A stretch of DNA of 64,000 bases, taken from the NCBI RefSeq assembly GCF_903166585.1, contig NZ_CAESCM010000005.1, positions 186,001 to 250,000 of the forward strand. The letters are read 5' to 3'. Every line of letters begins with the position of its first letter. The stretch's first letter is position 1. The stretch is from Pedobacter ghigonis (GTDB lineage: Bacteria; Bacteroidota; Bacteroidia; Sphingobacteriales; Sphingobacteriaceae). The notes under the pieces were generated by a model. That model did not search any database and was not told the origin of the DNA. It was given only the letters and a program-made list of their open reading frames with translations. Below, piece by piece: positions 2,191 through 64,000 of the stretch. A program made the translations under genes and the position numbers.

Positions 2191-5100
2191 CTATGTCCAG
2201 GTGTTTCCAGCCATGATCAATACCTGGCTTTCTTTACCATATTTTAGTTCGTTAAGGAAAGTTTCCATTCCATCCTGTAGCGGGATCAATGCAATTCCCC
2301 TGCGCTGGTATTCTTTCTCCAAAGTTGGCGAAACCATACCTGCACCTTTCCAGGGGCCCCAGTTAATCGCCATTACCTTACCCTGTATTTTCTGTTTCAG
2401 GGCCCAGGCATATTTATCCATTACACTGTTTGCAGCTGCATAATCGGTTTGTCCACGGTTTCCATAAACAGAAGCAATGCTCGAGAAAAGGATTACAAAC
2501 TGGGTTTCAGGTCGTAATTGCTCTGCAAGCACCCTTAATGGGGTCACTTTGGTATCGAAAACGCGACCAAATGATTCGGATGTTTTGCTGTGGAAGAGCT
2601 TATCTTCCAGTAAACCTGCACCGTGTACCACACCATCAATACGCCCGTGTTCTTCGTAAACCTGGTTAATCAGGCGGGTTAAAGCTTCTTCATCTTTAAG
2701 ATCTAGCGATTCGTAAACCACGGTAGAACCACCTTCTTCTAAAGTGGCAATGCAACGTAAAATCTGGTTGTTTTTATAAATCCTATTGGTTTCCTGTTCA
2801 ATTTCTGCAGGTTTTTTAATTTCTCCCTGTTTAATCAGGTATTGCCTGATCTCATCTTTGGTTTTTAATGCAGCACTGGGCTCGTTTGCAGAGGAAATCG
2901 GATTTGCCGAACGGCCCACCAGGATATATTTACAAGGATAATCTTTGGCAAAATGGATCGTTAATTCAGCTGTGATACCTTGTGCGCCGCCCAATACCAA
3001 TACCACGGAATCTTTATCTAAATGGATATGTGCATCGGTTTCGGTGCTTAGCTGGGTTGGGATCAGCTCCATAATGTGACGCTTATGGTCGTTGTAGATA
3101 ACCTCAGAAGGTTTATCCGGGTTTAAAATTTCGTTCAGCGCCATGTTGGCAATTTCATCGGCCGACATTTTGGTTTCCAGACTGATGAAGCGGCATTTGG
3201 TGTGCTCATATTCGCGATCCAGGCTTTTAAAGAAACCCGAATAACCCTGGTAATTCCTTAAGAAAGAAATATCAGACTGATCGTTAAAATACCGCTTGGT
3301 ATCAGCTATCAGGTACACCCATTTAACGGTGTCGAAATTGAGTTTTTTAATGGTTGCAAAATGATCCAGGATGCCCGATTTCTTTTGTGCTTCGAACATG
3401 TTCATGATGATGAGTCCCTGATAGCCATCCAAAGGATCTTCGAAATTGACTACATCGGCAATGGCACCATGTTTTTCTAAAAGCTTTTTGATTTTGACGG
3501 CTTGTCCGCCACCATCATCAGTTAAGGCAAAACGTTGTCCTTTTAAAATGGCGGCTTCGGTAACGGTTAAGGCCGCAGGAGTAAGCTCAAATCTCAAACG
3601 CGATAATTTTTCTTTAACGGTCTGATCGTCGATGCTCTCCTCAATAAGCTTTTTTGCTTCGATAAGCACCTCCGAGCTTTCGGCTTCTACATCTGCAATC
3701 CAGTTTACCAGGCTGCTTAAGGTTTTAATCGCGGCCAGTTTTTCTGTTAAATCATCAGTCTGTTCGCTTGCACTGCCAAAATCAATTTTTTCTTTCAGGG
3801 AGGCAATAATTTCCATTCTTTTTATCGAATCGATACTCAAATCGGCTTCAAGATCTAAATCCATGCCCAGCATTTCTTTAGGGTAACCGGTTTTTTCGCT
3901 CACCACATCTAAAATAACGGAGGTTAAGTCGTTTAAGGAAAGTTTAGCCGGTTCGGTTTGACTAACTGTCTGGGCAGCTTGTGGAGCGGCTGTTGCAGTG
4001 GTTTTGGATTGCGAATTTTCAGTAATCCAATTTACCAGGCTGTTTAAGGTTTTTAGTCCGGCCAGTTGCTCCATTATTTTATCTTCAGGCAAATTGAGCT
4101 GGGCAAAACCACCCAGTTCGGCGCGAAGTGCACCGATAATTTCTACCCGTTTAATCGAATCGATACTTAAATCGGCTTCGAGGTCCATTTCCATACCGAG
4201 CATTTCCTGCGGGTAACCGGTTTTATCGCTCACAATTTGCAGTAACACGAGTTTTAGGTCTTTTTGTTCCGTAACCGCGGCAACCGCCTGGATAACCGGA
4301 GCAGGTTGTGCGATTTGTTGTGTTACAGGGATGGTTTCAATATGGATGGGTTGAGGGGCCTGATACGTATTTAAAGGCTGTTGGTAATGCGCTGGCAGGG
4401 CAGGTACCTGACCTAAAAAAGAAAGCATTACATCGCGTTGCGCTTGAATCATTGCTTTCATGCTTTGCAGGTATTCCTGCATCATCAGGTCCTTGGCAGA
4501 ACCAAAAGCCTGTTGATTTTCTGTTGGGGTAATGGTGTTATTCATAAGCGTGATAGGTTTAGTAATAGGAGATGCACCGTAAGCGGGGAGCTTGCCGGTT
4601 GATGGAACAGCATGCTGGCCGTTAACCTGCCAAATGGCCGGACTTTTTTTGTATAATGCAGGCTCATCGATTTTAATCAGTTTAGCCTCGCGGCCTTCAA
4701 AAAGTTTTTCGATCAATATTTCGCGACCTGTAGCCATGTAGCCGGCCAGTGTGCCGAGCAGATGGCTTAATTTGTTCTGTCCCTGATCTTCGGTATGTAA
4801 AATTACCTCATCCTGGCCGATGCAGGCTTTAGTGAGGCCACTTAATACCTTGCCCGGGCCAACCTCAATAAAAATGCGCGCACCTGCTGCGTACATGCCC
4901 TTTAATTCATCTACGAAAAGAACAGGCTGGATTAAATGATCGGTTAACCGTTCTTTAATGGCTGCTGCTTTGGTTGGATAAATTTTGGCTGTGGTGTTAG
5001 ACCATACCGGAATTTTAAGATCGTTAAAGTTTACATCTGAAAGCACCTGTTGGTAAAGCACTTTCGATTTGCCAACCAATGGGCTATGGAATGCGCAGGC

Positions 5101-8100
5101 TACTTCGAGCGGACGGAAAGATATTTTAGCCGCTTTTAAAACCGCCGACAGTTGGGCAATGCCCTGAGTACTGCCTGCAATTACACATTGTGTTGGGGCA
5201 TTAAAGTTTACGGCATAAACTCCCTCAATATCGTTTAAGTATTGTGCAAGGTTTTCTTGTTTCGTACTTACGGCAAGCATGGTACCCGGATCGCCGTTTT
5301 CTACAGCGTTTAAGATCGCCAGTGCTCTTTCGGCACTTAAATGCACCAAGTCCTTTTCGTCGAAAGCACCAGCAAAACAAAGTGCAGGCAGTTCGCCATA
5401 ACTATGGCCGGCAACCATATCGGGTACAATGCCCAGCGATTTCAGGAAGCTGGCAATAGCAAGGTCGACAATGCCAAGCAGGGGCTGCGCCATGCGGGTA
5501 TCTTTTATGCGTTCTTTCTGTGCTTTTGCTTCGGCTTCGGTAAAAACAGTATTGGGGAAGAGTATTTTCTCATACTCCGGGTAATCTTTTAACAATTTTC
5601 TCATCTGCGGAAAAACCACAAATAGGTCTCTGGCCATGTTTACACGCTGACTGCCTTGTCCGGGAAACATGAAGGCCACTTTACCATCCTGTTTTTTAGT
5701 GAGGTAGGTATCTTTGCTTTCAACGCCGGATAAAACAAGATCGATTTTCATCACCAGATCTTCGGCATGGTTGGCTACAATGCTCAATTGAACAGGTTTT
5801 GCATCTGCTGTTGCCAGGCTGTAGGCAATATCTTTCAGTTCGATCTGATCATTCAGTTCCAAAAGGTTTTTTACTGAAACGAGACGGTTTTTAGCTTCCT
5901 CGTAGCTGTCGCCCCTGAAAACAAATAGTTCTGATGGCCACGATTTTAAGATCGGATTTTGATCTGCTGTATTTTTTGCACTTTCTAAAACGGCATGGAA
6001 ATTAGTTCCGCCAAAACCGAAGGCGCTAACACCTGCGTAACGTTTTTCTTCCATCCATAAACCGGCCTCGGTATGGAAAGCGAAAGGACTGGTTTGTGCA
6101 TTGTAAAAGCTATTGGGTGTTTTTAAGTTAATGGTTGGAGGTTTTATCCCATGGTAAACCGATAATGAGGTTTTGATTAAACCCGCAATACCAGCGGCAC
6201 ATTTGGTATGGCCAATCTGCGTTTTTACAGAGCCTAAATGCGTTTGTCCTGCTGTTGCACCCGATTGGTTGAGCATATCGGTTAGTGCGCTGATTTCAGT
6301 TTTATCGCCAACTACGGTACCTGTACCATGTGCTTCTACCAAACCGATTAAAGATGGGGTAATTCCGGCCTGACTGTAAGCTCTTTCGAGCGCATTTACC
6401 TGTCCGTTTTTACGTGGAGCGGTTAAACCCAGGCTTTTTCCATCGCTCGAACCACCTACGCCTTTAATAACAGAGAAAATGGTGTCGCCATCTTTTAGTG
6501 CGTCTTCGTATCTTTTCAGCACCACCATTGCAACACCTTCGCCGAGGGCAATTCCATCAGCTTCGGCATCAAAAGTGGCACAGCGGCCTTTTTTAGAAAG
6601 GGCATGCGTGCTCGAAAACATCAGGTAATCGTTAATGCCATTGTGGAGGTCTGCTCCGCCCGCCAAAACCATATCTGATTTTTCTAAAAATAACTCCTGG
6701 CAAGCGAGGTCTATTGCCGCAAGCGAAGACGCACAAGCTGCATCAACGGTATAGTTTCTACCGCCAAGGTTCAATCTGTTGGTAATCCTGCCGGAAATTA
6801 CGTTGGCTAAAATGCCCGGAAAAGAATCTTCGGTGGTTTTAGGCAAAGCAGCGTCAACTTCGGCAGGCATTTCGCCAAAAACCTGCTTGTAATAGCCCCT
6901 AAAGCTATAGCTGTTGGCCAGATCGTTTCCACCTTCTGCACCAATAATAACCGAAACATTTTCGTTATCCATGCCTCCATCGGCATAACCTGCGTGTTGT
7001 AATGCCTGTTTGGCCACCAGTAAACTGAGGAGTTGTGTAGGCTCTATTGCCGCTAACGATTGCGGTGGAATACCAAATTCGAGTGGATCGAAATCGATGG
7101 TTGGAATAAAGCCTCCCCATTTGGAGTGCGACATATCACCGGCTGTTGAATCGGGGTTATAATAAAGTGCTTTGTTCCATCTTTCGTCGGGTACTTCGGT
7201 TACCGAATCTTTACCTAAGATAATGTTGCGCCAGTATTCTTCGAGATTTTTTGCGCCAGGGAAAATACAGGCCATGCCTACAATGGCTACATCTAATGCC
7301 TGCGCCTTATTTTCGGGAGGAGCAGGAAGTTTTGCCTCTAAAATATGCTTATAGTTTTGATCGGCTACATCCTGGTGAAGATCCAGTAATGATATTATTT
7401 CTTTTTGCATCGGAGCCACCTGACCGATCATATACATGCCCAGGTCGGTTTGCCCGGCCTGATCAATTTTAACCAGTTCGTTGCCACGTCTTTCAATTCC
7501 TTTAGCAGCAATACGCAAACGTCCAACGTTTAGGGTTTCGAGTTTCGACCAGATTTCTTTTTTATCCAGTCCAGCGGCTTGCATTTTTTGTTTTTCTTCA
7601 TTGAAAAAAGTTGCGAAAGGAGAGTTTAAACACCGGGTTTCGTGCCCTGGAGCAGTTTCAAGCAATACGGTTTCGCTGGCATTCAGGGCTTCCTGTTGAA
7701 ATTGATCCAAGATGGCACCCGAGCTTACGGCTTCTTTGGTGTATAAATAGGCTGTACCCATCAAAACACCGATTTTCATTCCTTTAGCCGCTAAAGGAGC
7801 AGCCATTACCGAGATGAAAGCAGTAGAAAAAGCATCGTGGATTCCACCTGCAAAGAAAACGCTGATGCTTTCTGGGTTTTCTTCCTTTAGCAAACGTTCT
7901 ATTTGTTTTTCCCACAATACCATGCTGGATAAAGGCCCAACATGACCACCGCATTCGCGGCCTTCAAATACAAAACGTTTGGCTCCTTCTTTCAAAAACA
8001 TATCGAGCAGCGAGGCTGAAGGCACATGTAAAAAAGTTTTGATGCCTGCCTTTTCGAAAGGTTTGGCCTGCGAAGGCCGGCCGCCTGCAATTAATAAAAC

Positions 8101-9279
8101 AGGAGGTTTGGCCTTTAAAATATATTCCTGCTGTTCATCCCTGAGTTCCTGTGGAGCAAAACCTAAAATACCAACACCCCAGGTTTTTTCGCCTGCAAAC
8201 TTTTTGGTTTCTTCGATCAGGTTTTTGGCCGATTCGCCTTTTAATAAGGATAGTGCGATGAACGATAATGCACCAGCTTCCGAAACAGCATTTGCAAATG
8301 GTGCTACGTCGCTCACCCGGGTCATAGGTCCTTGAGCAATAGGGTAGGTGATGTTTAAATCCTGGGCAAGCGAATTGTGCGGCTTAATTACATTGATGGC
8401 CTTTGCTTGTTTAATGTGCCCGTAAATAGCTTCCTGAAGGCCAAAAATCAGTTTGTTTAGCTTTTTATATTTGTTTACAAGATCTGCTGATAGGGCAATA
8501 TCCTGACCCATTGGCAGGTAATGCTTTTCTAAATCGTAACCTTTGAAGTAATGCTGTAGGGTGAGGTAGTCCGTATCATCAGCCAGGGCTGGCGAATTTG
8601 GCCGAACAAGCACACGGCAGCCATCAATTAATTTGGTTTCGGTGCCACTTAATTTTCCGAAGATGTTTTTTAAAGCTGCAGGTGCCGAACATTCGGAAAA
8701 CATAGCCAGTTGACTATCGAGAATAATACCGGCAGCTCCCTGCGCCATTAACGATGCCGCTGTATGGATGCCTACACCACCCTGAATCCAAACCGGAAGG
8801 GTGACTGCTTTAATAACCCGTTGAAAAAGTATGAAGGAAGACTCGTAAGCAACACAGCCAGCGCCTTCATTTCCTTTTACAATAATGCCATAAGCGCCAT
8901 TTTTTTCTGCTGCGAGGGCTGATTCAAGATCGAAAACTTGATAAATTATTTTTGCGTTCTTTGGTGAAGGAACCGACAAACCAAAAGGAGCAATAATGAG
9001 GCTTACCTGCTGTGGTAAACGGATATCTGCTAATGCCTGCGAATGAATGCAGACCCCAAAATCAGACAATTCGGATTGTATGGTTGATTGAAGGGCTAAT
9101 TCAGCTTCTTCAAGACAATGTCCAAGGCTTAATACTGGAAAGCTACCTGCTTTTTGTAAATCGGAAACCAATCTACTATCGGGGATTTCGAAAGGCGTTA
9201 CTCCAATGATGGCGTGTTTGTTCATGGCTTTAGATTTGAATCTTCTACTTTGTTTGGTGGATGACTTTATGTGCGGCAT
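2191..9279 (-). CDS. PUFA-synthase-like megasynthase: NMO-NMO-KS-AT-ACP-ACP-KR
   Basis: A 2362-aa iterative synthase. Visible domains in order: a first nitronate-monooxygenase-like barrel (about 20-290); a second one (about 305-640) with IAQGPMTRVSD and GRECGGHVGP, the FMN enoyl-reductase type known from PfaD/FabK-like enzymes; ketosynthase (about 663-1110; Cys849 in DAACASS, His984 in HGTGT, His1024 in GHTKCAAG); acyltransferase (about 1180-1480; GQGSQ, Ser1293 in GHSYGEL); a Pro/Gln-rich linker; two acyl carrier domains with Ser1708 and Ser1818, both in DLEADLSIDSIKR; and a C-terminal NAD(P)-dependent ketoreductase (GGAQGI near 2097). No dehydratase motif was seen, so that activity may sit in the neighbour or outside the window. 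In marine PUFA systems the PfaD-like reductase is a separate protein; here it is fused at the N-terminus and doubled. The start could be Met1 or Met19 (ATG at 9225); Met19 sits directly before the first recognisable domain. It heads the operon with the KS-AT gene 22 nt downstream. Confidence 0.92.
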   Translation of the reverse strand: MPHIKSSTKQSRRFKSKAMNKHAIIGVTPFEIPDSRLVSDLQKAGSFPVLSLGHCLEEAELALQSTIQSELSDFGVCIHSQALADIRLPQQVSLIIAPFGLSVPSPKNAKIIYQVFDLESALAAEKNGAYGIIVKGNEGAGCVAYESSFILFQRVIKAVTLPVWIQGGVGIHTAASLMAQGAAGIILDSQLAMFSECSAPAALKNIFGKLSGTETKLIDGCRVLVRPNSPALADDTDYLTLQHYFKGYDLEKHYLPMGQDIALSADLVNKYKKLNKLIFGLQEAIYGHIKQAKAINVIKPHNSLAQDLNITYPIAQGPMTRVSDVAPFANAVSEAGALSFIALSLLKGESAKNLIEETKKFAGEKTWGVGILGFAPQELRDEQQEYILKAKPPVLLIAGGRPSQAKPFEKAGIKTFLHVPSASLLDMFLKEGAKRFVFEGRECGGHVGPLSSMVLWEKQIERLLKEENPESISVFFAGGIHDAFSTAFISVMAAPLAAKGMKIGVLMGTAYLYTKEAVSSGAILDQFQQEALNASETVLLETAPGHETRCLNSPFATFFNEEKQKMQAAGLDKKEIWSKLETLNVGRLRIAAKGIERRGNELVKIDQAGQTDLGMYMIGQVAPMQKEIISLLDLHQDVADQNYKHILEAKLPAPPENKAQALDVAIVGMACIFPGAKNLEEYWRNIILGKDSVTEVPDERWNKALYYNPDSTAGDMSHSKWGGFIPTIDFDPLEFGIPPQSLAAIEPTQLLSLLVAKQALQHAGYADGGMDNENVSVIIGAEGGNDLANSYSFRGYYKQVFGEMPAEVDAALPKTTEDSFPGILANVISGRITNRLNLGGRNYTVDAACASSLAAIDLACQELFLEKSDMVLAGGADLHNGINDYLMFSSTHALSKKGRCATFDAEADGIALGEGVAMVVLKRYEDALKDGDTIFSVIKGVGGSSDGKSLGLTAPRKNGQVNALERAYSQAGITPSLIGLVEAHGTGTVVGDKTEISALTDMLNQSGATAGQTHLGSVKTQIGHTKCAAGIAGLIKTSLSVYHGIKPPTINLKTPNSFYNAQTSPFAFHTEAGLWMEEKRYAGVSAFGFGGTNFHAVLESAKNTADQNPILKSWPSELFVFRGDSYEEAKNRLVSVKNLLELNDQIELKDIAYSLATADAKPVQLSIVANHAEDLVMKIDLVLSGVESKDTYLTKKQDGKVAFMFPGQGSQRVNMARDLFVVFPQMRKLLKDYPEYEKILFPNTVFTEAEAKAQKERIKDTRMAQPLLGIVDLAIASFLKSLGIVPDMVAGHSYGELPALCFAGAFDEKDLVHLSAERALAILNAVENGDPGTMLAVSTKQENLAQYLNDIEGVYAVNFNAPTQCVIAGSTQGIAQLSAVLKAAKISFRPLEVACAFHSPLVGKSKVLYQQVLSDVNFNDLKIPVWSNTTAKIYPTKAAAIKERLTDHLIQPVLFVDELKGMYAAGARIFIEVGPGKVLSGLTKACIGQDEVILHTEDQGQNKLSHLLGTLAGYMATGREILIEKLFEGREAKLIKIDEPALYKKSPAIWQVNGQHAVPSTGKLPAYGASPITKPITLMNNTITPTENQQAFGSAKDLMMQEYLQSMKAMIQAQRDVMLSFLGQVPALPAHYQQPLNTYQAPQPIHIETIPVTQQIAQPAPVIQAVAAVTEQKDLKLVLLQIVSDKTGYPQEMLGMEMDLEADLSIDSIKRVEIIGALRAELGGFAQLNLPEDKIMEQLAGLKTLNSLVNWITENSQSKTTATAAPQAAQTVSQTEPAKLSLNDLTSVILDVVSEKTGYPKEMLGMDLDLEADLSIDSIKRMEIIASLKEKIDFGSASEQTDDLTEKLAAIKTLSSLVNWIADVEAESSEVLIEAKKLIEESIDDQTVKEKLSRLRFELTPAALTVTEAAILKGQRFALTDDGGGQAVKIKKLLEKHGAIADVVNFEDPLDGYQGLIIMNMFEAQKKSGILDHFATIKKLNFDTVKWVYLIADTKRYFNDQSDISFLRNYQGYSGFFKSLDREYEHTKCRFISLETKMSADEIANMALNEILNPDKPSEVIYNDHKRHIMELIPTQLSTETDAHIHLDKDSVVLVLGGAQGITAELTIHFAKDYPCKYILVGRSANPISSANEPSAALKTKDEIRQYLIKQGEIKKPAEIEQETNRIYKNNQILRCIATLEEGGSTVVYESLDLKDEEALTRLINQVYEEHGRIDGVVHGAGLLEDKLFHSKTSESFGRVFDTKVTPLRVLAEQLRPETQFVILFSSIASVYGNRGQTDYAAANSVMDKYAWALKQKIQGKVMAINWGPWKGAGMVSPTLEKEYQRRGIALIPLQDGMETFLNELKYGKESQVLIMAGNTWT

Positions 9280-21411: not shown

Positions 21412-21877
21412 ACGGTTTAATATTTGGAAGATTCTAATCGTAAAAGTAAAATATTTAGAATAATAAACGTTAATTTAACATTTATTTTTTTGTTGCTTGT
21501 CAATTTTGTTCATAAATTCTAGCATATTAGCATTCACAATAATTATATGACGGGCGAAAATTAGCCAGGGAGTAGTAAAAGGGTTTAGTAAAGTAACTTT
21601 TTACTTGATGTTTTTAATTTGTTTTAAAGAAACCTTTAAAATCTTTCTTATAACATATTGTCATGCTAAAAAAGCAGGATACTACAGGATGCACGTTAAA
21701 AATATACTAGTTACATTCGGCTTGAATCAATTAACCGTTGTTACCACGCTTCTGTTAACATTCGCTAACCAATTGCACACGATGAGCCTTCTTTACGCCA
21801 ATATTTCTGGTATTGATGATGTTTTTTGCAGGACTGTTTGTGCCCGGAAAGCAATTTCATTCCATCTAAAAATTAAT
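21412..21877. other. Divergent intergenic region between the GH51 operon and the macroglobulin-like gene
   Basis: A very AT-rich 466-bp stretch. It holds the plus-strand CAGGAT-repeat promoter (21674-21719). The plus reading frame extends upstream of 21878, but that extension runs through the promoter element and encodes no signal peptide, so it is taken as leader. No confident minus-strand promoter was identified for the GH51 operon. Confidence 0.6.
21674..21719 (+). promoter_or_regulatory. CAGGAT-repeat promoter, copy 1
   Basis: GCAGGATACTACAGGATG (21674-21691) is a direct repeat of CAGGAT with 10-bp period. After exactly 20 nt comes TACATTCG (21712-21719), a -7-like box. It points to the gene starting at 21878, with a leader of about 150 nt. 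Confidence 0.8.
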
Positions 21878-24298
21878 ATGGATTTCAAAAAATATCTTTT
21901 GCTTACGCTGCTAAATGTATTTGCATTTTATGGTTTCGCACAGCAAAAAAGCGTATCTGCCAACACCGATCCGAAAACACTAAAGCTCTTTTTTGAAAAG
22001 GCCTACCTGCAAACCGATCGGGCCTATTACAGCACCGGCGAAACGGTTTGGTTTAGCGCCTATCTGGTTAACGGAAAAAGTACAAGTTTAACTGCTACCA
22101 GCAATAACCTGTATGTAGAGCTGGTTTCTTCAAAATCGCTTGTGCTCGATAGTAAAATTATCAGAATTGATGGCGGTTTGGGCAAAGGCGATTTCGAATT
22201 GAAAGATTCCATTCCTTCAGGCTGGTACAATATCAGGGCATACACCAGCTGGATGCGGAATTTTGGTAATGATTTTGTGTTTCAGAAAAGAATATACGTA
22301 AGCAATAATATTGTAGAAAACGCATCTTATTTTACCCGTAACGCGGCGAAAAAGAACGATGAGGCAGCAACAGCCAAATCAAAATCGATTGCATTTTTCC
22401 CCGAAGGTGGCTCGCTGGTTGAGGGCTTAACGAGCGTGGTCGCTTTTAAAACCAACGATGAACTGGGAAACGGGCTAAAAGCAACCGGAAGTATAATCTC
22501 ATCCAAGGGCGATACCGTTGCCACATTTAACAGTACCGAAGCCGGAATGGGCATTTTTGCCTTAACACCTCAACCAGGCGAAAAGTACCGCGTTGCCGGC
22601 TATTATGGCCAGGAAAAATTTTCGGCTACGTTGCCGGCTATATTGGGTAAAGGCCTATCGCTGCACATTACTACCGATTCGGCCAATATTAAAGCAATAA
22701 TTAGTGCCAATTCTCCCGTTTTCGCCGAATTAAAAGATAAAAGTATATCCATTCTGGTTAAACATGCCAGTGATGTAATTTACTCAGGTGCTATCAAACT
22801 CAGCAAGCCTACGGTTTCGGTGAGCATCCCAACCAAAGGTTTTCCAAAGGGAATTTCGGCACTTACACTCCTTGATGACCAGGGCAGGCCTAATTGCGAA
22901 AGGCTCGTATTTATCCAGGGTGATGAAAATATCCAGATGGCCATAACGGCAGATAAGGCCACCTACAAACCCCGCGAGAAGGTGACTTTAAAGCTTAAAA
23001 CGAGCAATACGCTTGGTCAGCCAGTTAAAACTACCCTCTCTCTGGCGGCTGTTGATGAAATGATTCCGGATGACGGGCAAAATATCATGGCTTATCTGTT
23101 GCTGCAATCGGAGGTTAGGGGAGAGGTTAAAAATGCTGCGCAATATTTTGATCCAGGCAATCCATCACGGTTAAAACAGCTCGATTTACTATTACTTACC
23201 CAGGGTTGGAGAGATTATTTATGGAAAAAGCTGGCCGATTCGAGTATTAAAATCAGCTACATGCCCGAACCAGGTATTACCATTAAAGGTTCGGTAAGAG
23301 AAAAACTGGCCAATAAACCACTGGCCAACATGAACATCACTTTATTTGGCTCTAATTTTACAGGCGATAAGCTTTTTACTACCAAAACCGATCAGGCAGG
23401 AAATTATTTTCTCGACGGCTTAAAATGGTTCGGCAACCAGGCCATTAAAATTTCATCAAAAGACGATAAAGGCAAAAAAGGAGGCTGGCTGAAGATCGAT
23501 ACCTTAATTAAGCCCTTAAACCTGGCTTCGCTAAAAATGCCACAAACGGGTATTCCAAATCCTTTAAATGTAGAGTTGGGTAAACGCATGGATTATAACC
23601 GTACCTATAAATTTGGCGATTCCATTACCCTGAGCGAAGTGGAAATTAAAGCAGCAAAGAGCAGGCAGGTGAATCTTTTTGAAGAAACTTTAACCACATT
23701 CGGTTATCCCGAGCAGGTTTTTAACATTACTGCTGCCGATTATTCGTATAAAGGACTGGAACATTTTCTGTTAACCAAGGCCAATGGCGCTATGCCGGCA
23801 GATGAGGGCGATAGTATCAGTAACGAAGGGATAACTTTTATCGCCAACGGGAAAAGAATAAGGCCCAGGATTAAGGTAAACAACAGGGAAGAACTGGTAG
23901 CTGAGCGACTGGATTACTACAGTTTAACCATGGATCAGATTAACCAGGTGAAAATTCAGCACTTAATTGGAAGTACCGGTAACGATGTGTACCTCATAAG
24001 CCTGAATTTAAAAGACGAGGCGCTGCTTGGCTCAAATTTAAACCTGTTAAATGTTAATTTGAACGGATACTACAATGCCCGTACTTTTTATTCGCCCAAT
24101 TATGCCAATCCTGCTACGCAAAGTAAAGATTTAAGAACCACTATATTCTGGAACCCCAGTATAAAAACAAACGAAAACGGAGAGGCAACAATCAGTTTTT
24201 ACAATGGTGATAACAAGAGCAATGTGCGCGTTAAAGCCGATGGAATTACAGATAAGGGCGTTGCTGTGGCGACCAAAATCGGATATAAAGTTCAATAA
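21878..24298 (+). CDS. Secreted macroglobulin-like (MG2-type) protein of unknown function
   Basis: 806-aa exported protein; the signal peptide MDFKKYLLLTLLNVFAFYGF ends near AQQ and fixes the start. The N-terminal part resembles the MG domains of large Bacteroidota proteins (KAYLQTDRAYYSTGETVWFSAYL, about 30-50). It is followed by further beta-sandwich segments, a carboxypeptidase-regulatory-like domain (about 470-540, IKGSVREKLANKPLANMNI), and a C-terminal segment with ATISFYNGDNKSNVRV typical of the same group, some members of which carry plug-like regions. No catalytic motif or thioester was seen. It is first in a transcript with two rhamnogalacturonan lyases (48 nt downstream) and sits behind the CAGGAT-repeat promoter, which ties it to pectin use. 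Function unknown; a periplasmic or outer-membrane accessory role is a guess. Confidence 0.8.
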   Translation: MDFKKYLLLTLLNVFAFYGFAQQKSVSANTDPKTLKLFFEKAYLQTDRAYYSTGETVWFSAYLVNGKSTSLTATSNNLYVELVSSKSLVLDSKIIRIDGGLGKGDFELKDSIPSGWYNIRAYTSWMRNFGNDFVFQKRIYVSNNIVENASYFTRNAAKKNDEAATAKSKSIAFFPEGGSLVEGLTSVVAFKTNDELGNGLKATGSIISSKGDTVATFNSTEAGMGIFALTPQPGEKYRVAGYYGQEKFSATLPAILGKGLSLHITTDSANIKAIISANSPVFAELKDKSISILVKHASDVIYSGAIKLSKPTVSVSIPTKGFPKGISALTLLDDQGRPNCERLVFIQGDENIQMAITADKATYKPREKVTLKLKTSNTLGQPVKTTLSLAAVDEMIPDDGQNIMAYLLLQSEVRGEVKNAAQYFDPGNPSRLKQLDLLLLTQGWRDYLWKKLADSSIKISYMPEPGITIKGSVREKLANKPLANMNITLFGSNFTGDKLFTTKTDQAGNYFLDGLKWFGNQAIKISSKDDKGKKGGWLKIDTLIKPLNLASLKMPQTGIPNPLNVELGKRMDYNRTYKFGDSITLSEVEIKAAKSRQVNLFEETLTTFGYPEQVFNITAADYSYKGLEHFLLTKANGAMPADEGDSISNEGITFIANGKRIRPRIKVNNREELVAERLDYYSLTMDQINQVKIQHLIGSTGNDVYLISLNLKDEALLGSNLNLLNVNLNGYYNARTFYSPNYANPATQSKDLRTTIFWNPSIKTNENGEATISFYNGDNKSNVRVKADGITDKGVAVATKIGYKVQ

Positions 24299-29823: not shown

Positions 29824-29869
29824 GCAGGATACTACAGGATGCCAACATGCGATTATTGTCTTATTTTAA
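29824..29869 (+). promoter_or_regulatory. CAGGAT-repeat promoter, copy 2
   Basis: GCAGGATACTACAGGATG (29824-29841), identical to copy 1, then 20 nt, then TATTTTAA (29862-29869). It points to the GH2 gene at 29911 with only about 35-40 nt of leader, the shortest of the five. Confidence 0.8.
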
Positions 29870-29910
29870 CAGCCTAACCAAATACCAGCGGTGCTAAAAC
29901 CGTCCTATTT

Positions 29911-42612: not shown

Positions 42613-42658
42613 GCAGGATAGTACAGGATGGGATTTTTATTGCACGTTTTTATATTTA
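42613..42658 (+). promoter_or_regulatory. CAGGAT-repeat promoter, copy 3 (SusCD operon)
   Basis: GCAGGATAGTACAGGATG (42613-42630), 20 nt, then TATATTTA (42651-42658). It drives the fasciclin/SusC/SusD operon starting at 42849 with a leader near 185 nt. Confidence 0.8.
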
Positions 42659-42701
42659 AGAAATAATTTTTCTAACCAGATAACCTTTTAACCAAAATTT
42701 A

Positions 42702-58216: not shown

Positions 58217-58237
58217 GCGTTGTAAAAAAATAGAAGT

Positions 58238-58292
58238 GTAGTCGTTTTTTATGTAGTCGTTTTTTGACTACATAAAAAACGACTACTTTTTT
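58238..58292 (+). terminator. Strong intrinsic terminator, 21-bp stem
   Basis: Positions 58238-58258 and 58266-58286 are perfect 21-bp complements (arms start GTAGTCG and end CGACTAC) with a 7-nt loop and a T6 run at 58287-58292. The left arm and loop contain GTAGTCGTTTTTT twice in tandem. A second small hairpin with TGTGAC/GTCACA follows just downstream. Confidence 0.9.
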
Positions 58293-58859: not shown

Positions 58860-60530
58860 TTACCAATCCAGCTTCAAAAACGAAACTCCTTGTCTGGGTA
58901 ATAAAATTCCTATCTCCTTTAAATTGCTTTGCTTTACCGGCTTCCCAACCATTTTAAGCTGACCTGCTTTTTCGAGTAGCGCAATCTGTTTTGAATCGGG
59001 ATTTTGTGGCGAGCCCATTTTTTTCCAAATTTCGTAAGCATTGCTGTTATCGCCATCTATGCGGTATTCGGTTAGGGTAACTGTTTTAAGGGGTAAGTTG
59101 TTGAGCAAAACCCTTACCGAATCCTGGGTGCCTGTTTTGTCTTCATCGTGGTAATTCCACACCAACACCGAAGCTGATTTTTCTGCTTTTGCGGCCAGTG
59201 CGCCAATATCGGTTTGTGGTTTCCTGATACTCGAATCGAGTACCGACCTGAGCGCATACATGCGGTTACTTCTGGTTTCTACACGGTTGCCTTTCATCAT
59301 CCCAAACATCCTGAAAACATTCAGCACAGGTTTATCAACTCCGTTGGTGGCTAAATCTCTAAAACCGGCAAACCAGGGCTGGTTTTCGAACTCGAACGAC
59401 CAGGTTACTGCGCCCAGCAGGTTAATTTTATACAGATCGGTAAGTGCATACAAGCGGGCAAACGAAGCAGCGGTGTAGCTCGAGTACATGGTGCCATTGC
59501 GGTAAGCATTTTCGGGGTTGGTGGCCATACCACAGGCTGCACAGCCTTCAGGGTCTGACTCGCCGATAATAACCGGGATATTTTTAAGTTGCGGGTATTT
59601 GGCAATTACGCGGTAGTTCGATTCCATATTGCGCAGCTGGGCCCTGATATCCATCACTACTGTGCCGTTTATCACGCGGGGCGATCCTTTGGCATGAAAA
59701 AGAACAGCATCTAAAGGCGAACCGATTTTTCCTGTTAAATAATTGGTATCGCTTAAGCAGTGTTTAATAAAGGCATCAAGGTATTTGGAAGCTCCGCCGG
59801 TAACATTTGCACCACCAATTCTGGCTGTGGGGAGCGCACGTTTCAAACCATCGGCGGCATAATCATAAAGTTTAAAAAACTCAGCCTGTGTACCTTTCCA
59901 ATAGGCACCATCCGGTTCGTTCCAAACTTCCCAGTACCAGCTTTCTACTTCGGCTTTGCCATAGCGGGCTACACTGTGTTTTACCCATTCGTAAACCAGG
60001 TTGCTCCATTTTTGGTAATCTTTGGGTGGGTAGGCCCATCCGGTTTCGATCACACTGTATTTTGCTCCTGGTTTCCATTGGTGCTGATAGGGAATAGGAT
60101 TGGTTGATAAAGCCTCGGGCATAAAACCAATCTGCGCCAAAGGTTTCATGCCGCGTTTAACATAAGTATCGAAAATCTGGTCAACAATTTTCCAGTTGTA
60201 TACGGGGTTGCCCTGGGCATCTTCGGTGTAGGCATTGGTTGAGCCCCATTTAAGTGCCGGTGTACCATCGCCCGAGGTGAGTAAATTATGTGCCCTTACA
60301 TAAACCGGTACCGGACTGAGTTTCGAAATCTCCGTAAGCAGTTTCTGGCCATCCTTCATATACGTATAATTCGGCTCATCGTAACCAAACCAGGCCCAAA
60401 CGGGTTTCATTGGCGCAATTGGCTGGTTAAAATTTACCTCAATACTGGTTTTGTTTTGGGCAAAGCTTGCTGAAACCATTAGGGTTTGAAGCAGCAGAAT
60501 GGATATTTTTAATGCTTTCATAATAGTCAT
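58860..60530 (-). CDS. GH39-type glycosidase (beta-xylosidase family)
   Basis: Secreted 556-aa enzyme, signal peptide to about residue 25 (SASFAQ); MTIM and the in-frame ATG three codons later are both possible starts. Clan A barrel with acid/base Glu205 in WEVWNEPDGAYW and nucleophile Glu324 in VIIGESDPEGCAACG, then AVTWSFEFENQPWFAGFRDL and a C-terminal beta-sandwich. Two cysteines (GCAACG) right after the nucleophile are unusual. GH39 covers beta-xylosidase, alpha-L-iduronidase and further activities on plant glycans, so substrate is open. It follows the GH2 gene by 8 nt. Confidence 0.83.
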   Translation of the reverse strand: MTIMKALKISILLLQTLMVSASFAQNKTSIEVNFNQPIAPMKPVWAWFGYDEPNYTYMKDGQKLLTEISKLSPVPVYVRAHNLLTSGDGTPALKWGSTNAYTEDAQGNPVYNWKIVDQIFDTYVKRGMKPLAQIGFMPEALSTNPIPYQHQWKPGAKYSVIETGWAYPPKDYQKWSNLVYEWVKHSVARYGKAEVESWYWEVWNEPDGAYWKGTQAEFFKLYDYAADGLKRALPTARIGGANVTGGASKYLDAFIKHCLSDTNYLTGKIGSPLDAVLFHAKGSPRVINGTVVMDIRAQLRNMESNYRVIAKYPQLKNIPVIIGESDPEGCAACGMATNPENAYRNGTMYSSYTAASFARLYALTDLYKINLLGAVTWSFEFENQPWFAGFRDLATNGVDKPVLNVFRMFGMMKGNRVETRSNRMYALRSVLDSSIRKPQTDIGALAAKAEKSASVLVWNYHDEDKTGTQDSVRVLLNNLPLKTVTLTEYRIDGDNSNAYEIWKKMGSPQNPDSKQIALLEKAGQLKMVGKPVKQSNLKEIGILLPRQGVSFLKLDW

Positions 60531-60538
60531 TGCTGTTT

Positions 60539-63508
60539 TTATGGGGTTTCAAAAATATCGGCTTCGATAATGCTTAAGCCACCTTTTAATTTGGTTTCTG
60601 CCCGGTTAACCCCATCATCCAGTTTTTTACCGTTAACTTCTACACCAATTGCTGCATTTTCTTTTTCTTTGCCCGAACCAAGCAATTGTATGGTTACGGT
60701 TTTTCCTTTTGTGGGTTTGCAGGTAGCGGTAAAATAACCTAAACTGGTTTTAGTTTCACCGTTAAACACTTCTTTACCATCAACACTAATGCGTAGCGGA
60801 TAGGTTTTAGAACGGAAGCCATTTAATTTTAAAGCCACCTGGCTAACCGTACGCTCTTTCTCCAGGGTGTATTTAATCCAGGCCGTATTGATTTTTCCAT
60901 CATTAACCCAATCGCTCAGTTCGTTGTCATCGTAACTCAATTGGGCTTTATCATTATTTGCGCCTGCTTCGGCGGCGATAATTTTAATCGTTTTACGCTG
61001 TACGGTAAATGAACTGCCTTTTGGCGTTTCGCCCTTGCTTAAATTCGGTTTTAACCCATCGGCCGGAAAGCTTGTTGCCAAACCGTTTTCTACCAGTACA
61101 GGAATGGTTTCTAAACCAATCGCAGCCGGTTTTAAACCATCGGCACTGGCGCTAAGGCTAATTTTACCAGCCTGCGTTAACGATCTGATTAAAACCCGGT
61201 TTACACCACCTTCTACGGGCAATACTTTCGATAAAATGAAATTATCAGGGCCTTGTGCCAATCCACCGCGCCATTCGGCAGGTCCGCTGAGCTCAAAATT
61301 AATGGTGTTTAAAGCTGTTGGGCACCTGTTTCCGTTTATATCTACCACTTCAACCTGAACCAGCGCTACATCGGCTCCATCGGCCTTAAAGCCTGCGGGG
61401 TTTTTAATGGCCGTAAGTTTTATAGCTACTGGTTTTCCGGCAGTTTTTAATTGTGTTTCGGCAAGTTTTTTGCCGGAAGCGTTGTACGACACCGCTTTTA
61501 GTGTACCCGGCTGATAAGCGATATGGTTAAAGGTAAACAAAAAGCCATCGCTCTTTTTACCAAAGCCTAAAGATTTGTTGTTCAGGATCAGTTCTACCTT
61601 ATCGCCTGCGGCCACTACGTTTATATCCTTTTTAGTGCCGTTTTGGTAATTCCAGTGACCAATGATATAAATGCCTTCCTTTTTCGCATCTACCCAGCCA
61701 TCCCACATCACTTTGTGTGCAAAAAAGCCATCTTTAGGTATGCGCATGGCATCTACCTCGCCACTGCGCCTGTAGTTTTCTTCGCCCCGGTGGTGGGTAT
61801 TCGAATCAGAAAATATAATGTTTACCCCACCCGAACTTAGGCGGGTGCCCGTGCCTGGCCGTTCCTGGTAATATTCGTTCCAGCGGATTACATCTTCAAT
61901 GGCATGGCTATTCATATTGCGGTTATAATCGCTGGCATCGGCTCCTTTATATTGCGGACCAGCACCATTTTTATGGTAAGGAGGCGAAAATTCATCCCAG
62001 TATTTGCGGAGGGCCTCATCGCGCGAGTACTCCATCGACCACAGTGGTTTGGTTGCACTTTTGTTAATGTAAAGCATCTCGCCACCATACTCGGCTTCGG
62101 GTATATCGAGCATTTCCCTCGATCCGATGGCCCGGTTGCCGTAGGGATCGTAGCTGTCGCGAATGGCTTTCATTTCTTTCATGTGTTCGGCACTGATCGA
62201 TTCGTTTCCGCACTCGTAAAACAAAATGCTGGGGTTATTTCGGTTGTAAATAATCGCATCGCGCATTACGGCTTTTCTTTGGTCCCAGCGGGTGCCGGTT
62301 ACATCTTTTTCCGAGTCGCCGGCAGGCATGGCCTGTATCAAACCTACGCGGTCGCACGATTCGATATCCTGTTTCCAGGGGGTAATGTGCATCCATCGAA
62401 CCAGATTGGCATTGCTTTCTACCATGAGCTGGTTGCTGTAATCGCTTAGCCACGCCGGTACCGATAAACCAATGGCTGGCCATTCGTTGCTGCTCCGTTG
62501 TGCATAACCTTTCATCATCAATACCCGGTCGTTTAAGTACACCATGCCATTTTTAAACTCGGCCTTTCTAAAACCGGTTTGGGTGTTCAGTTCGTCGATA
62601 ATGGTTCCGTTAACTTTTAATCGTGAGCTAACCGTATACAAATAGCCATAACCCCAGCTCCAGAAATGGAGTCCGTTAACCAATGATTCGGCCTTCAGTA
62701 TTTTGGTTTCGCCTGGGGCAAGGCTTTGTGGGGCCGTTGCAAAAGTTTTAATCGTTTTCCCTTCGGTATCTTTTAATGCTACTTCGTAAACAACCATGCT
62801 GGCCTGACCGCTTTCGTTTTTTACTTCTGACTGCGATACGATGGTGGCCGATTTTTGACTGATGTTGAAATCTTTGGCATAAATGTAATTCCCGGTAGTT
62901 TGTAAAGTGGTGTAGAGTGGAAGCGTTTGATACACTTTACCGGTAACATGCAGTTTTACATTTTTCGAAATGCCGCCATAATTGGCATTAAAGTTTTTAT
63001 CGTTCCATTGGTAGCCCGAATTGGTGGCTTTTTCCCGGTAGTTCCAGGCGTTATCTATTTTTACGGCGATTACATTTTCCTTATCTGCATTAATTAAATC
63101 GCTGATGTCGAAACCGAAAGCCATTACGCCGTTTTCGTGGCGGCCAATAAATTTGCCATTCAGGTAAAACTCGCCTGCTTGCCTGATACCTTCAAATTCC
63201 AGAAAAATTTTGTAGTTCTGGCTGTTTTGCGGCAGCTTAAAATGTTTGCGGTACCAGGCTATGCCGGTTGAGTGTTCTTCAATCGATTTTTTAAAGGCTT
63301 CATCTTCGTTCCAGGCGTGGGGCAGTGTGATGGCTTTCCAGCTTTGGTCGTTAAAATCAACCGATTCTGCACCTGGTATATCGCCTACGTATAGTTTCCA
63401 TCCCGGATTAAAATTGTAGCTTGTTCTAACTGGTGGGCTTTGTTGTGAAAAAGCTTGCAGGCAGAAGATTATGCAAACCATAAGGGCGAGTAATTTTTTT
63501 TGGCTCAT
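60539..63508 (-). CDS. GH2 beta-galactosidase/beta-glucuronidase-like enzyme
   Basis: Secreted 989-aa enzyme, signal peptide to about residue 21 (QAFSQ). Sugar-binding jelly roll (about 25-190; GIAWYRKHFKLP, FEGIRQAGEFYLNGKFIGRHENG), immunoglobulin-like domain, TIM barrel (about 305-580) with acid/base Glu436 in YECGNES and nucleophile Glu493 in LWSMEYSRDE, a DUF4982-like domain (about 600-670), an invasin-like beta domain, and a C-terminal discoidin-like module (about 845-960; DDNELSDWVNDGKINTAWIKYTLE). A different GH2 subtype from the enzyme at 29.9 kb. Head of the minus-strand GH2-GH39 transcript behind CAGGAT promoter copy 4. Confidence 0.88.
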   Translation of the reverse strand: MSQKKLLALMVCIIFCLQAFSQQSPPVRTSYNFNPGWKLYVGDIPGAESVDFNDQSWKAITLPHAWNEDEAFKKSIEEHSTGIAWYRKHFKLPQNSQNYKIFLEFEGIRQAGEFYLNGKFIGRHENGVMAFGFDISDLINADKENVIAVKIDNAWNYREKATNSGYQWNDKNFNANYGGISKNVKLHVTGKVYQTLPLYTTLQTTGNYIYAKDFNISQKSATIVSQSEVKNESGQASMVVYEVALKDTEGKTIKTFATAPQSLAPGETKILKAESLVNGLHFWSWGYGYLYTVSSRLKVNGTIIDELNTQTGFRKAEFKNGMVYLNDRVLMMKGYAQRSSNEWPAIGLSVPAWLSDYSNQLMVESNANLVRWMHITPWKQDIESCDRVGLIQAMPAGDSEKDVTGTRWDQRKAVMRDAIIYNRNNPSILFYECGNESISAEHMKEMKAIRDSYDPYGNRAIGSREMLDIPEAEYGGEMLYINKSATKPLWSMEYSRDEALRKYWDEFSPPYHKNGAGPQYKGADASDYNRNMNSHAIEDVIRWNEYYQERPGTGTRLSSGGVNIIFSDSNTHHRGEENYRRSGEVDAMRIPKDGFFAHKVMWDGWVDAKKEGIYIIGHWNYQNGTKKDINVVAAGDKVELILNNKSLGFGKKSDGFLFTFNHIAYQPGTLKAVSYNASGKKLAETQLKTAGKPVAIKLTAIKNPAGFKADGADVALVQVEVVDINGNRCPTALNTINFELSGPAEWRGGLAQGPDNFILSKVLPVEGGVNRVLIRSLTQAGKISLSASADGLKPAAIGLETIPVLVENGLATSFPADGLKPNLSKGETPKGSSFTVQRKTIKIIAAEAGANNDKAQLSYDDNELSDWVNDGKINTAWIKYTLEKERTVSQVALKLNGFRSKTYPLRISVDGKEVFNGETKTSLGYFTATCKPTKGKTVTIQLLGSGKEKENAAIGVEVNGKKLDDGVNRAETKLKGGLSIIEADIFETP

Positions 63509-63618
63509 TTTTTAATTTTGATGATGGCTAGGAGCAATACTGGAATTATAAATCTTTGTAAGCGCTGATTGCGAAAAAAAGGTTAATAATGCCAGAAATA
63601 TTTGGTTAAATGATGATA

Positions 63619-63664
63619 CGATATTAACATATAAAATCTAACGATCCATCCTGTGCTATCCTGC
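63619..63664 (-). promoter_or_regulatory. CAGGAT-repeat promoter, copy 4 (GH2-GH39)
   Basis: On the minus strand: GCAGGATAGCACAGGATG (63664-63647), 20 nt, then TAATATCG (63626-63619). Leader to the GH2 ATG at 63508 is about 105 nt. Confidence 0.78.
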
Positions 63665-63747: not shown

Positions 63748-63793
63748 GCAGGACACTACAGGATGATTTATCAAATGGAATAAGATACTTTCG
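63748..63793 (+). promoter_or_regulatory. CAGGAT-repeat promoter, copy 5 (right-edge gene)
   Basis: GCAGGACACTACAGGATG (63748-63765), 20 nt, TACTTTCG (63786-63793). It points to the gene starting at 63908 with a leader near 110 nt. Confidence 0.78.
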
Positions 63794-63907: not shown

Positions 63908-64000
63908 ATGAGAATCTCATTAATTATCAGCGCATTTCTAGTTGTTTTTTCCTTACAGTGTTTTGCTGCTGTAGGGGAGCCGCTTAATCCGGTAGTAGCA
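63908..64000 (+). CDS. Secreted protein, N-terminus only (runs off right edge)
   Basis: Only 31 codons are visible: MRISLIISAFLVVFSLQCFA, a signal peptide, then AVGEPLNPVVA. The frame is open at the window end. Placement behind CAGGAT promoter copy 5 predicts another enzyme or binding protein of the same regulon; its family cannot be read from so few residues. The Cys in LQCFA could be a weak lipobox but FAA looks more like a signal peptidase I site. Confidence 0.6.
   Translation, partial: MRISLIISAFLVVFSLQCFAAVGEPLNPVVA

Follow-up and report, generated by a model that had tools for sequence, protein, structure and literature searches.

Why does a short tandem repeat stand at exactly the same distance from a -7 box at five places in one locus, and which protein would read it? 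The question is raised by the window, that is the whole 64-kb stretch of Pedobacter ghigonis DNA that was analysed, which is a rhamnogalacturonan/pectin PUL. We propose that these sites are probably rhamnose-regulon promoters of the class II activator-dependent type, bound and switched by a candidate regulator, RhaR. The proposal rests on the anatomy of the sites, on their distribution and on the like architecture found on the rhamnose operon that carries the RhaR gene.

Five repeats at one distance from the -7 box

The window holds five copies of the repeat, at 21675-21691 (+), 29825-29841 (+), 42614-42630 (+), 63647-63663 (-) and 63749-63765 (+), compared to an expectation of 0.06 copies from shuffles. 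An earlier note on this DNA had reported a gap of exactly 20 nt between the last G of CAGGATG and an octamer starting with TA, and this is borne out in all five copies. The heptamer CAGGATG alone occurs 23 times in the window, for the most part in coding sequence. The sites (given at the full 19-bp extent described below), their -7 octamers and their predicted targets are as follows.

21674..21692, + strand: site 1, predicted activator site with a tandem repeat, GCAGGATACTACAGGATGC; two 9-bp units with a 10-bp period
21712..21719, + strand: -7 box of site 1, TACATTCG, 19 nt past site 1; predicted operon of promoter 1: MG2-domain protein, two PL11 genes, GDSL
29824..29842, + strand: site 2, GCAGGATACTACAGGATGC
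29862..29869, + strand: -7 box of site 2, TATTTTAA; predicted operon of promoter 2: GH2, GH88, GH115, GH31, rhaM, GH106
42613..42631, + strand: site 3, GCAGGATAGTACAGGATGG
42651..42658, + strand: -7 box of site 3, TATATTTA; predicted operon: fasciclin, SusC, SusD
63646..63664, - strand: site 4, GCAGGATAGCACAGGATGG
63619..63626, - strand: -7 box of site 4, TAATATCG; predicted targets: GH2 (60539-63508), GH39 (58860-60530)
63748..63766, + strand: site 5, divergent to site 4, GCAGGACACTACAGGATGA
63786..63793, + strand: -7 box of site 5, TACTTTCG; predicted target: GH28-family gene, start near 63908

The first gene behind site 1 probably starts at the ATG at 21878. The gene of the GH28 family downstream of site 5, which runs from about 63908 into L166:1-1436, lies in two reading frames in the assembly, so that either the gene is broken or the sequence is in error. 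At 58237-58286, flanked by the SusD-like and DUF805 genes, the window also contains a perfect 21-nt inverted repeat that includes 14 nt repeated directly (TGTAGTCGTTTTTT); it may be a terminator or what is left of a small mobile element. At its left end (2191-9279, - strand), a polyketide-synthase-like protein of 2362 aa with ketoacyl synthase, acyltransferase and ketoreductase domains apparently has no relation to the PUL.

Five of five had been judged hard to explain by chance, and the calculation agrees: given a TA frequency of 0.096 in intergenic DNA, all five copies would have TA at one fixed offset with a probability of about 8e-6, which rises to 3e-4 when 40 offsets are allowed. Together with the shuffles, these offset probabilities rule out chance as the cause of the fixed spacing.

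The spacing is kept across Pedobacter

The earlier note had looked to other copies in the genome as a check on the 20-nt gap. Two further copies in the same genome (G000:C18:63400 and G000:C1:475080) both keep it, the copy on contig 1 standing before a GH28 gene and the copy on contig 18 before a TIM-barrel isomerase-like gene. CAGGATG combined with TA at +20 was also tried as a genome-wide probe; its 77 matches were uninformative, the heptamer being common in coding sequence.

For a blind test, the pattern CAGGAYNNNNCAGGATG was searched in 145 Pedobacter genomes with the downstream sequence left free. TA is found at +20 in 108 of the 121 mostly intergenic (non-coding) matches to this looser pattern, while all other offsets stay at or below 35%. 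At the sites that carry the repeat signature (n=100), position +20 is TA in 97 and GA in 3, with no other case, compared to a mean of 11% TA at other offsets; matches without the signature have TA at +20 in only 20 of 62. Exceptions to the 20-nt gap are mostly such matches. One orthologous promoter pair, L076 and L079 from two Pedobacter genomes, has its octamer 1 nt closer, with a perfect TATATTTG.

Dropping similar spacers (38 clusters, <60% identity) left 38 promoters, and TA or GA stands at +20 in all 38. The -7 bases that lay outside the selection are conserved as well: T in 28/38, T in 38/38, a free position, then G in 22 or A in 14 of the 38. Because the spacers are unrelated and the first downstream genes of the Pedobacter sites belong to at least 12 unrelated families, shared ancestry cannot explain the spacing, and the possibility that the sites are copies of one ancestral promoter is ruled out.

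Anatomy of the promoter

The conserved element is 19 bp long and consists of two 9-bp units, RCAGGAYRS-N-RCAGGATGS, followed by 19 nt and then by TAnnTTnR; the full signature from aligned Pedobacter promoters is RCAGGAYRSNRCAGGATGS, with the two 9-bp units repeated every 10 bp. The copies reported earlier were thus located correctly but drawn too short: most copies continue with an S base after the last G, and the spacing is better stated as a 19-bp site plus 19 nt. The element is a direct repeat and not the palindrome NyGTNxACNy of a typical GntR operator. The logo of the aligned promoters contains no second copy about 21 bp upstream, the arrangement of hybrid two-component system (HTCS) operators; the period is 10 bp.

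The downstream box, TAnnTTnR, resembles the sigma-A box TAnnTTTG, and its coordinates can be taken from published data that place the Flavobacterium sigma-A -7 box at -12 to -5 (PMC9723704). These coordinates place the 19-bp site between about -50 and -32 and its centre near -41, which is where class II activators classically bind. The use of weak -7 boxes only, as stated earlier, is a feature of the window and not general, as full TAnnTTTG boxes follow sites in Flavobacterium (TAAATTTG) and in Sphingobacterium and Pricia (TATATTTG).

A short motif, TTAACCAAATA, begins 1-14 nt past most octamers, where the mRNA is predicted to start. Ten or more of its 11 positions are matched in 57 of 120 promoters, compared to 0 in shuffled leaders, and the motif is also present past the rhamnose-operon promoter. 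Genome-wide, TAACCAAATA is mildly enriched (103 occurrences vs 68 for the reversed pattern). In the window the leader motif is found at three positions.

29875..29884, + strand: leader motif TAACCAAATA, at the predicted transcript 5' end of promoter 2
about 42673-42682, + strand: leader motif after promoter 3
63599..63608, - strand: leader motif TAACCAAATA, after promoter 4

A variant repeat on the rhamnose operon

In the same genome, rhaT and the isomerase, kinase and aldolase genes lie together in a rhamnose catabolic operon: rhaT, a bifunctional rhamnulose-phosphate aldolase/dehydrogenase (rhaD-ADH), a rhamnose isomerase, a kinase and, as last gene, a regulator. RhaT and RhaD-ADH score above the NCBIfam cut-offs; the isomerase and kinase assignments are best matches below cut-off. 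The operon is preceded by a variant of the architecture with the unit form GCATAACAG-T-GCATAACAG. More specifically, CCATAACAG-T-GCATAACAG stands upstream of rhaT, followed by 19 nt and TATTTTAG, and GCATAACAGTGCATAACAG-N19-TATTTTAG or close forms occur on the rhamnose operon in this and other Pedobacter genomes. Searched in Pedobacter without a spacing condition, the variant repeat is present in 64 genomes, with 0 control matches. TA is found at N19 in 32 of the 33 variant contexts examined, and in 12 of 13 once similar spacers are removed.

Some sites carry one unit of each variant, or letters that are partly mixed (L395, L259, L260). Such a mixed site, ACATGATAGTACAGGACAG, precedes rhaT in L395; another, ACAGTACAGTACAGGATAC, precedes the aldolase gene rhaD in L259, and in Pricia ACAGTACAGTACAGGATAC or ACGGTACAGTACAGGATAG is found there. 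Judged by their letters, these sites are apparent intermediates linking the rhamnose-type and PUL-type motifs.

What the -33 letters say about the mode of action

The two variants also differ at the -33 position, where TTTG is absent and the letters are GATG/ATGS in the PUL-type sites and AACA/ACAG in the rhamnose-operon variant. The earlier note had read the GATG end of the repeat as lying where the -33 TTTG is expected. The repeat does occupy the -33 region, but GATG is not a substitute -33 word, and since the variant keeps the spacing with AACA/ACAG in its place, the conserved feature is the register of the repeat units. The position of the repeat suggests that the element as a whole replaces the -33. 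Ordinary -33/-7 spacing in Pedobacter was sought in the fetched sequence, and no spacing stood out; the -33 element has been described as hard to detect in Bacteroidota (B. theta TSS paper).

As expected of a class II promoter, the site overlaps the -33 region and keeps its distance from the -7 box in 100 of 100 signature sites and in 32 of 33 variant sites. We infer from this architecture that the promoters would depend on an activator, as the earlier note had suggested. The same GntR-type protein could act as a repressor instead, with an operator that overlaps a normal promoter and contains its -33, hence the fixed spacing. The known GntR/LacI chimera AraR carries a repressor annotation, overlap of operators with -35/-33 regions is frequent, and the induction logic would be unchanged. 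However, none of the -33 letters is TTTG-like in either variant while the register stays the same, and a repressor does not need a fixed helical phase to the -7 box. We consider a repressor unlikely. A constant register despite unlike -33 letters is better explained by an activator contacting RNA polymerase in a fixed geometry than by a repressor overlapping an embedded -33; it is the activator that seems to set the spacing.

The rigid gap to the downstream box would also be expected if an alternative (ECF) sigma factor read the repeat as its -35, without any regulator. Here the box is the housekeeping TAnnTTnR and not the ECF CGT box, and a sigma factor would have no need of a two-unit tandem repeat, which makes this explanation hardly credible.

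Distribution across Bacteroidota

The signature followed by N19 and TANNTT was scanned against about 85,000 bacterial and archaeal species, with one genome per species. At least 118 stretches match, and among the matches listed all are from Bacteroidota, in the orders Sphingobacteriales, Flavobacteriales, Cytophagales and Chitinophagales; none of the matches listed is from Bacteroidales. The Pedobacter, variant and phylum-wide tests agree on the central point of the earlier note, namely that the repeat keeps its register with the -7 box and occupies the -33 region. Genes near the scanned sites include relatives of the window's GH106, GH88/105, PL11, GH28 and SusC/SusD genes as well as GH78 rhamnosidases, with rhaM also among the targets. 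The theme common to these neighbourhoods is rhamnose-containing polysaccharide.

A candidate regulator

In the phylum scan, one kind of regulator recurs near the sites in several arrangements, a protein of 349-379 aa that joins a GntR winged HTH to a LacI-type sensor domain. Its counterpart in the Pedobacter ghigonis genome is the following gene.

G000:C1:55629-56687: RhaR, candidate regulator, last gene of the genome's own rhamnose operon

The N-terminal GntR winged HTH (PF00392) is above the gathering cut-off in two homologs, with both of which the P. ghigonis protein aligns; its best NCBIfam matches are MocR-type. The C-terminal effector domain is of the LacI/GalR type (PF13377). In an AlphaFold model of RhaR (mean pLDDT 88), the N-terminal segment is helical/winged and the C-terminal domain matches LacI-family repressors and AraR 3tb6. 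The RDT segment of the recognition helix is invariant between the Sphingobacteriia and Flavobacteriia proteins, as expected if both read the same site.

Of the 117 genomes with a strong RhaR match, 41 contain full PUL-type sites, compared to 0 of the 28 without (P=3.6e-5); for variant sites the counts are 64 of 117 vs 0 of 28 (P=1e-8). Both P values ignore kinship, and the co-occurrence is confounded, as the breakdown of rhamnogalacturonan goes hand in hand with rhamnose catabolism whichever regulator is in charge. Several site-bearing genomes, such as G060, G104, G084 and G100, contain a single RhaR-family match, so that one protein would have to serve both unit variants.

Some points count against RhaR. 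Across the Pedobacter genomes compared, no regulator gene is conserved inside the PUL, and the lack of an RhaR gene there is one such point; the preference of GntR proteins for palindromes is another. By analogy, the annotation of AraR as a repressor would speak against RhaR as an activator. The presence of HTCS genes near the sites in some genomes also counts against it.

Indeed, an HTCS with its AraC-type HTH could bind the repeat, as in the rhamnogalacturonan PULs of Bacteroides, whose regulons are HTCS-run (PMC3878776), and four Sphingobacterium loci and two further genomes have HTCS genes close to the sites. Predicted HTCS motifs, though, are direct repeats with a period of about 21 bp and not 10 (PMC3878776). 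Among the matches listed, no AraC-type protein lies inside the site-bearing clusters of G060, G084 and G008, and it is the rhamnose operon, home of the GntR gene, that has the variant repeat. We regard an HTCS as decidedly improbable.

OmpR-type regulators typically bind repeats spaced 10 bp apart, on one face of the helix. The period seen here would thus fit an OmpR/PhoB-type response regulator or some other binder of 10-bp-period tandem repeats, and likewise suits DeoR-type rhamnose regulators (PMC3870299). No OmpR/PhoB-type gene was seen adjoining the sites, however, where the regulator that recurs is the GntR/LacI protein, and a factor of this sort appears very improbable.

Proposed mechanism

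In the mechanism that we favour, RhaR would be a cytoplasmic regulator that binds the two near-identical 9-bp units on one helix face, one turn apart. From about -50 to -32, it would place the housekeeping sigma-A RNA polymerase on TAnnTTnR exactly 19 nt downstream, standing in for the -33 word that the promoter itself would lack; the transcription start is predicted from the position of the octamer. Rhamnose or a rhamnose-derived ligand would switch RhaR, and the monosaccharide from rhamnogalacturonan would turn on both the catabolic operon and the polysaccharide-degrading operons.

It also seems rather likely to us that a GntR/LacI chimera serves as a class II activator in four Bacteroidota orders through a tandem direct repeat that replaces the -33, tying PULs to a cytoplasmic monosaccharide sensor; the catabolic operon and the PULs would each have their own variant of the unit, equally far from the -7 box. 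The anatomy of activator-dependent core promoters in Bacteroidota has so far been poorly defined; this promoter class offers an exact phylum-wide geometry together with a named candidate activator, and its consensus makes the rhamnose regulon readable directly from genomes. We found no description of the motif or of a GntR-type RhaR in Bacteroidota in the open-access literature.

Comparison with known systems

Bacterial promoters that depend on a class II activator have the activator at about -41 and a -35 that is poor or absent. The promoters described here are like them in their fixed gap to the -10/-7 box, in a site centre near -41 and in an upstream core element that is probably missing. 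They differ in using Bacteroidota sigma-A with a TAnnTTTG-type -7 and a tandem repeat of 10-bp period, and activation is here what the architecture points to.

GntR proteins mostly bind palindromes, whereas the MocR branch often binds direct repeats (PMC5320631, PMC4494728); MocR-type regulators such as TauR, PdxR and GabR are activators with direct-repeat operators (CTGGACYTAA for TauR, PMC5320631). RhaR shares the GntR winged HTH with them but lacks their aminotransferase domain and has a LacI-like sugar-binding domain instead. AraR of Bacillus subtilis has the same two-domain plan, matching RhaR in the HTH by sequence (4egy) and in the effector domain by fold (3tb6). AraR is a repressor by its PDB records, while the direct repeat at -41 suggests activation for RhaR, whose sugar, by context, would be L-rhamnose and sets it apart from AraR. 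The DeoR-family RhaR regulons, which respond to rhamnose, have imperfect direct repeats with a 10-11 bp period (PMC3870299); the repeat geometry is similar, but these regulators belong to a different protein family from the GntR-type RhaR and to other lineages. With the MocR and DeoR direct repeats, the geometry has precedents, though in other proteins. A 2013 survey of rhamnose regulation covers AraC, DeoR and LacI regulators and leaves GntR and Pedobacter unmentioned.

RhaR (BT3768) and HTCS_Rgu of Bacteroides thetaiotaomicron likewise control rhamnose catabolism and rhamnogalacturonan PULs. They differ in being AraC-type, in having sites with a period of about 21 bp and in dividing the monosaccharide and the PULs between separate regulators. 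If the reading proposed here is true, rhamnogalacturonan PULs outside Bacteroidales would obey the same monosaccharide sensor as the catabolic operon, in contrast to the HTCS wiring of gut Bacteroides.
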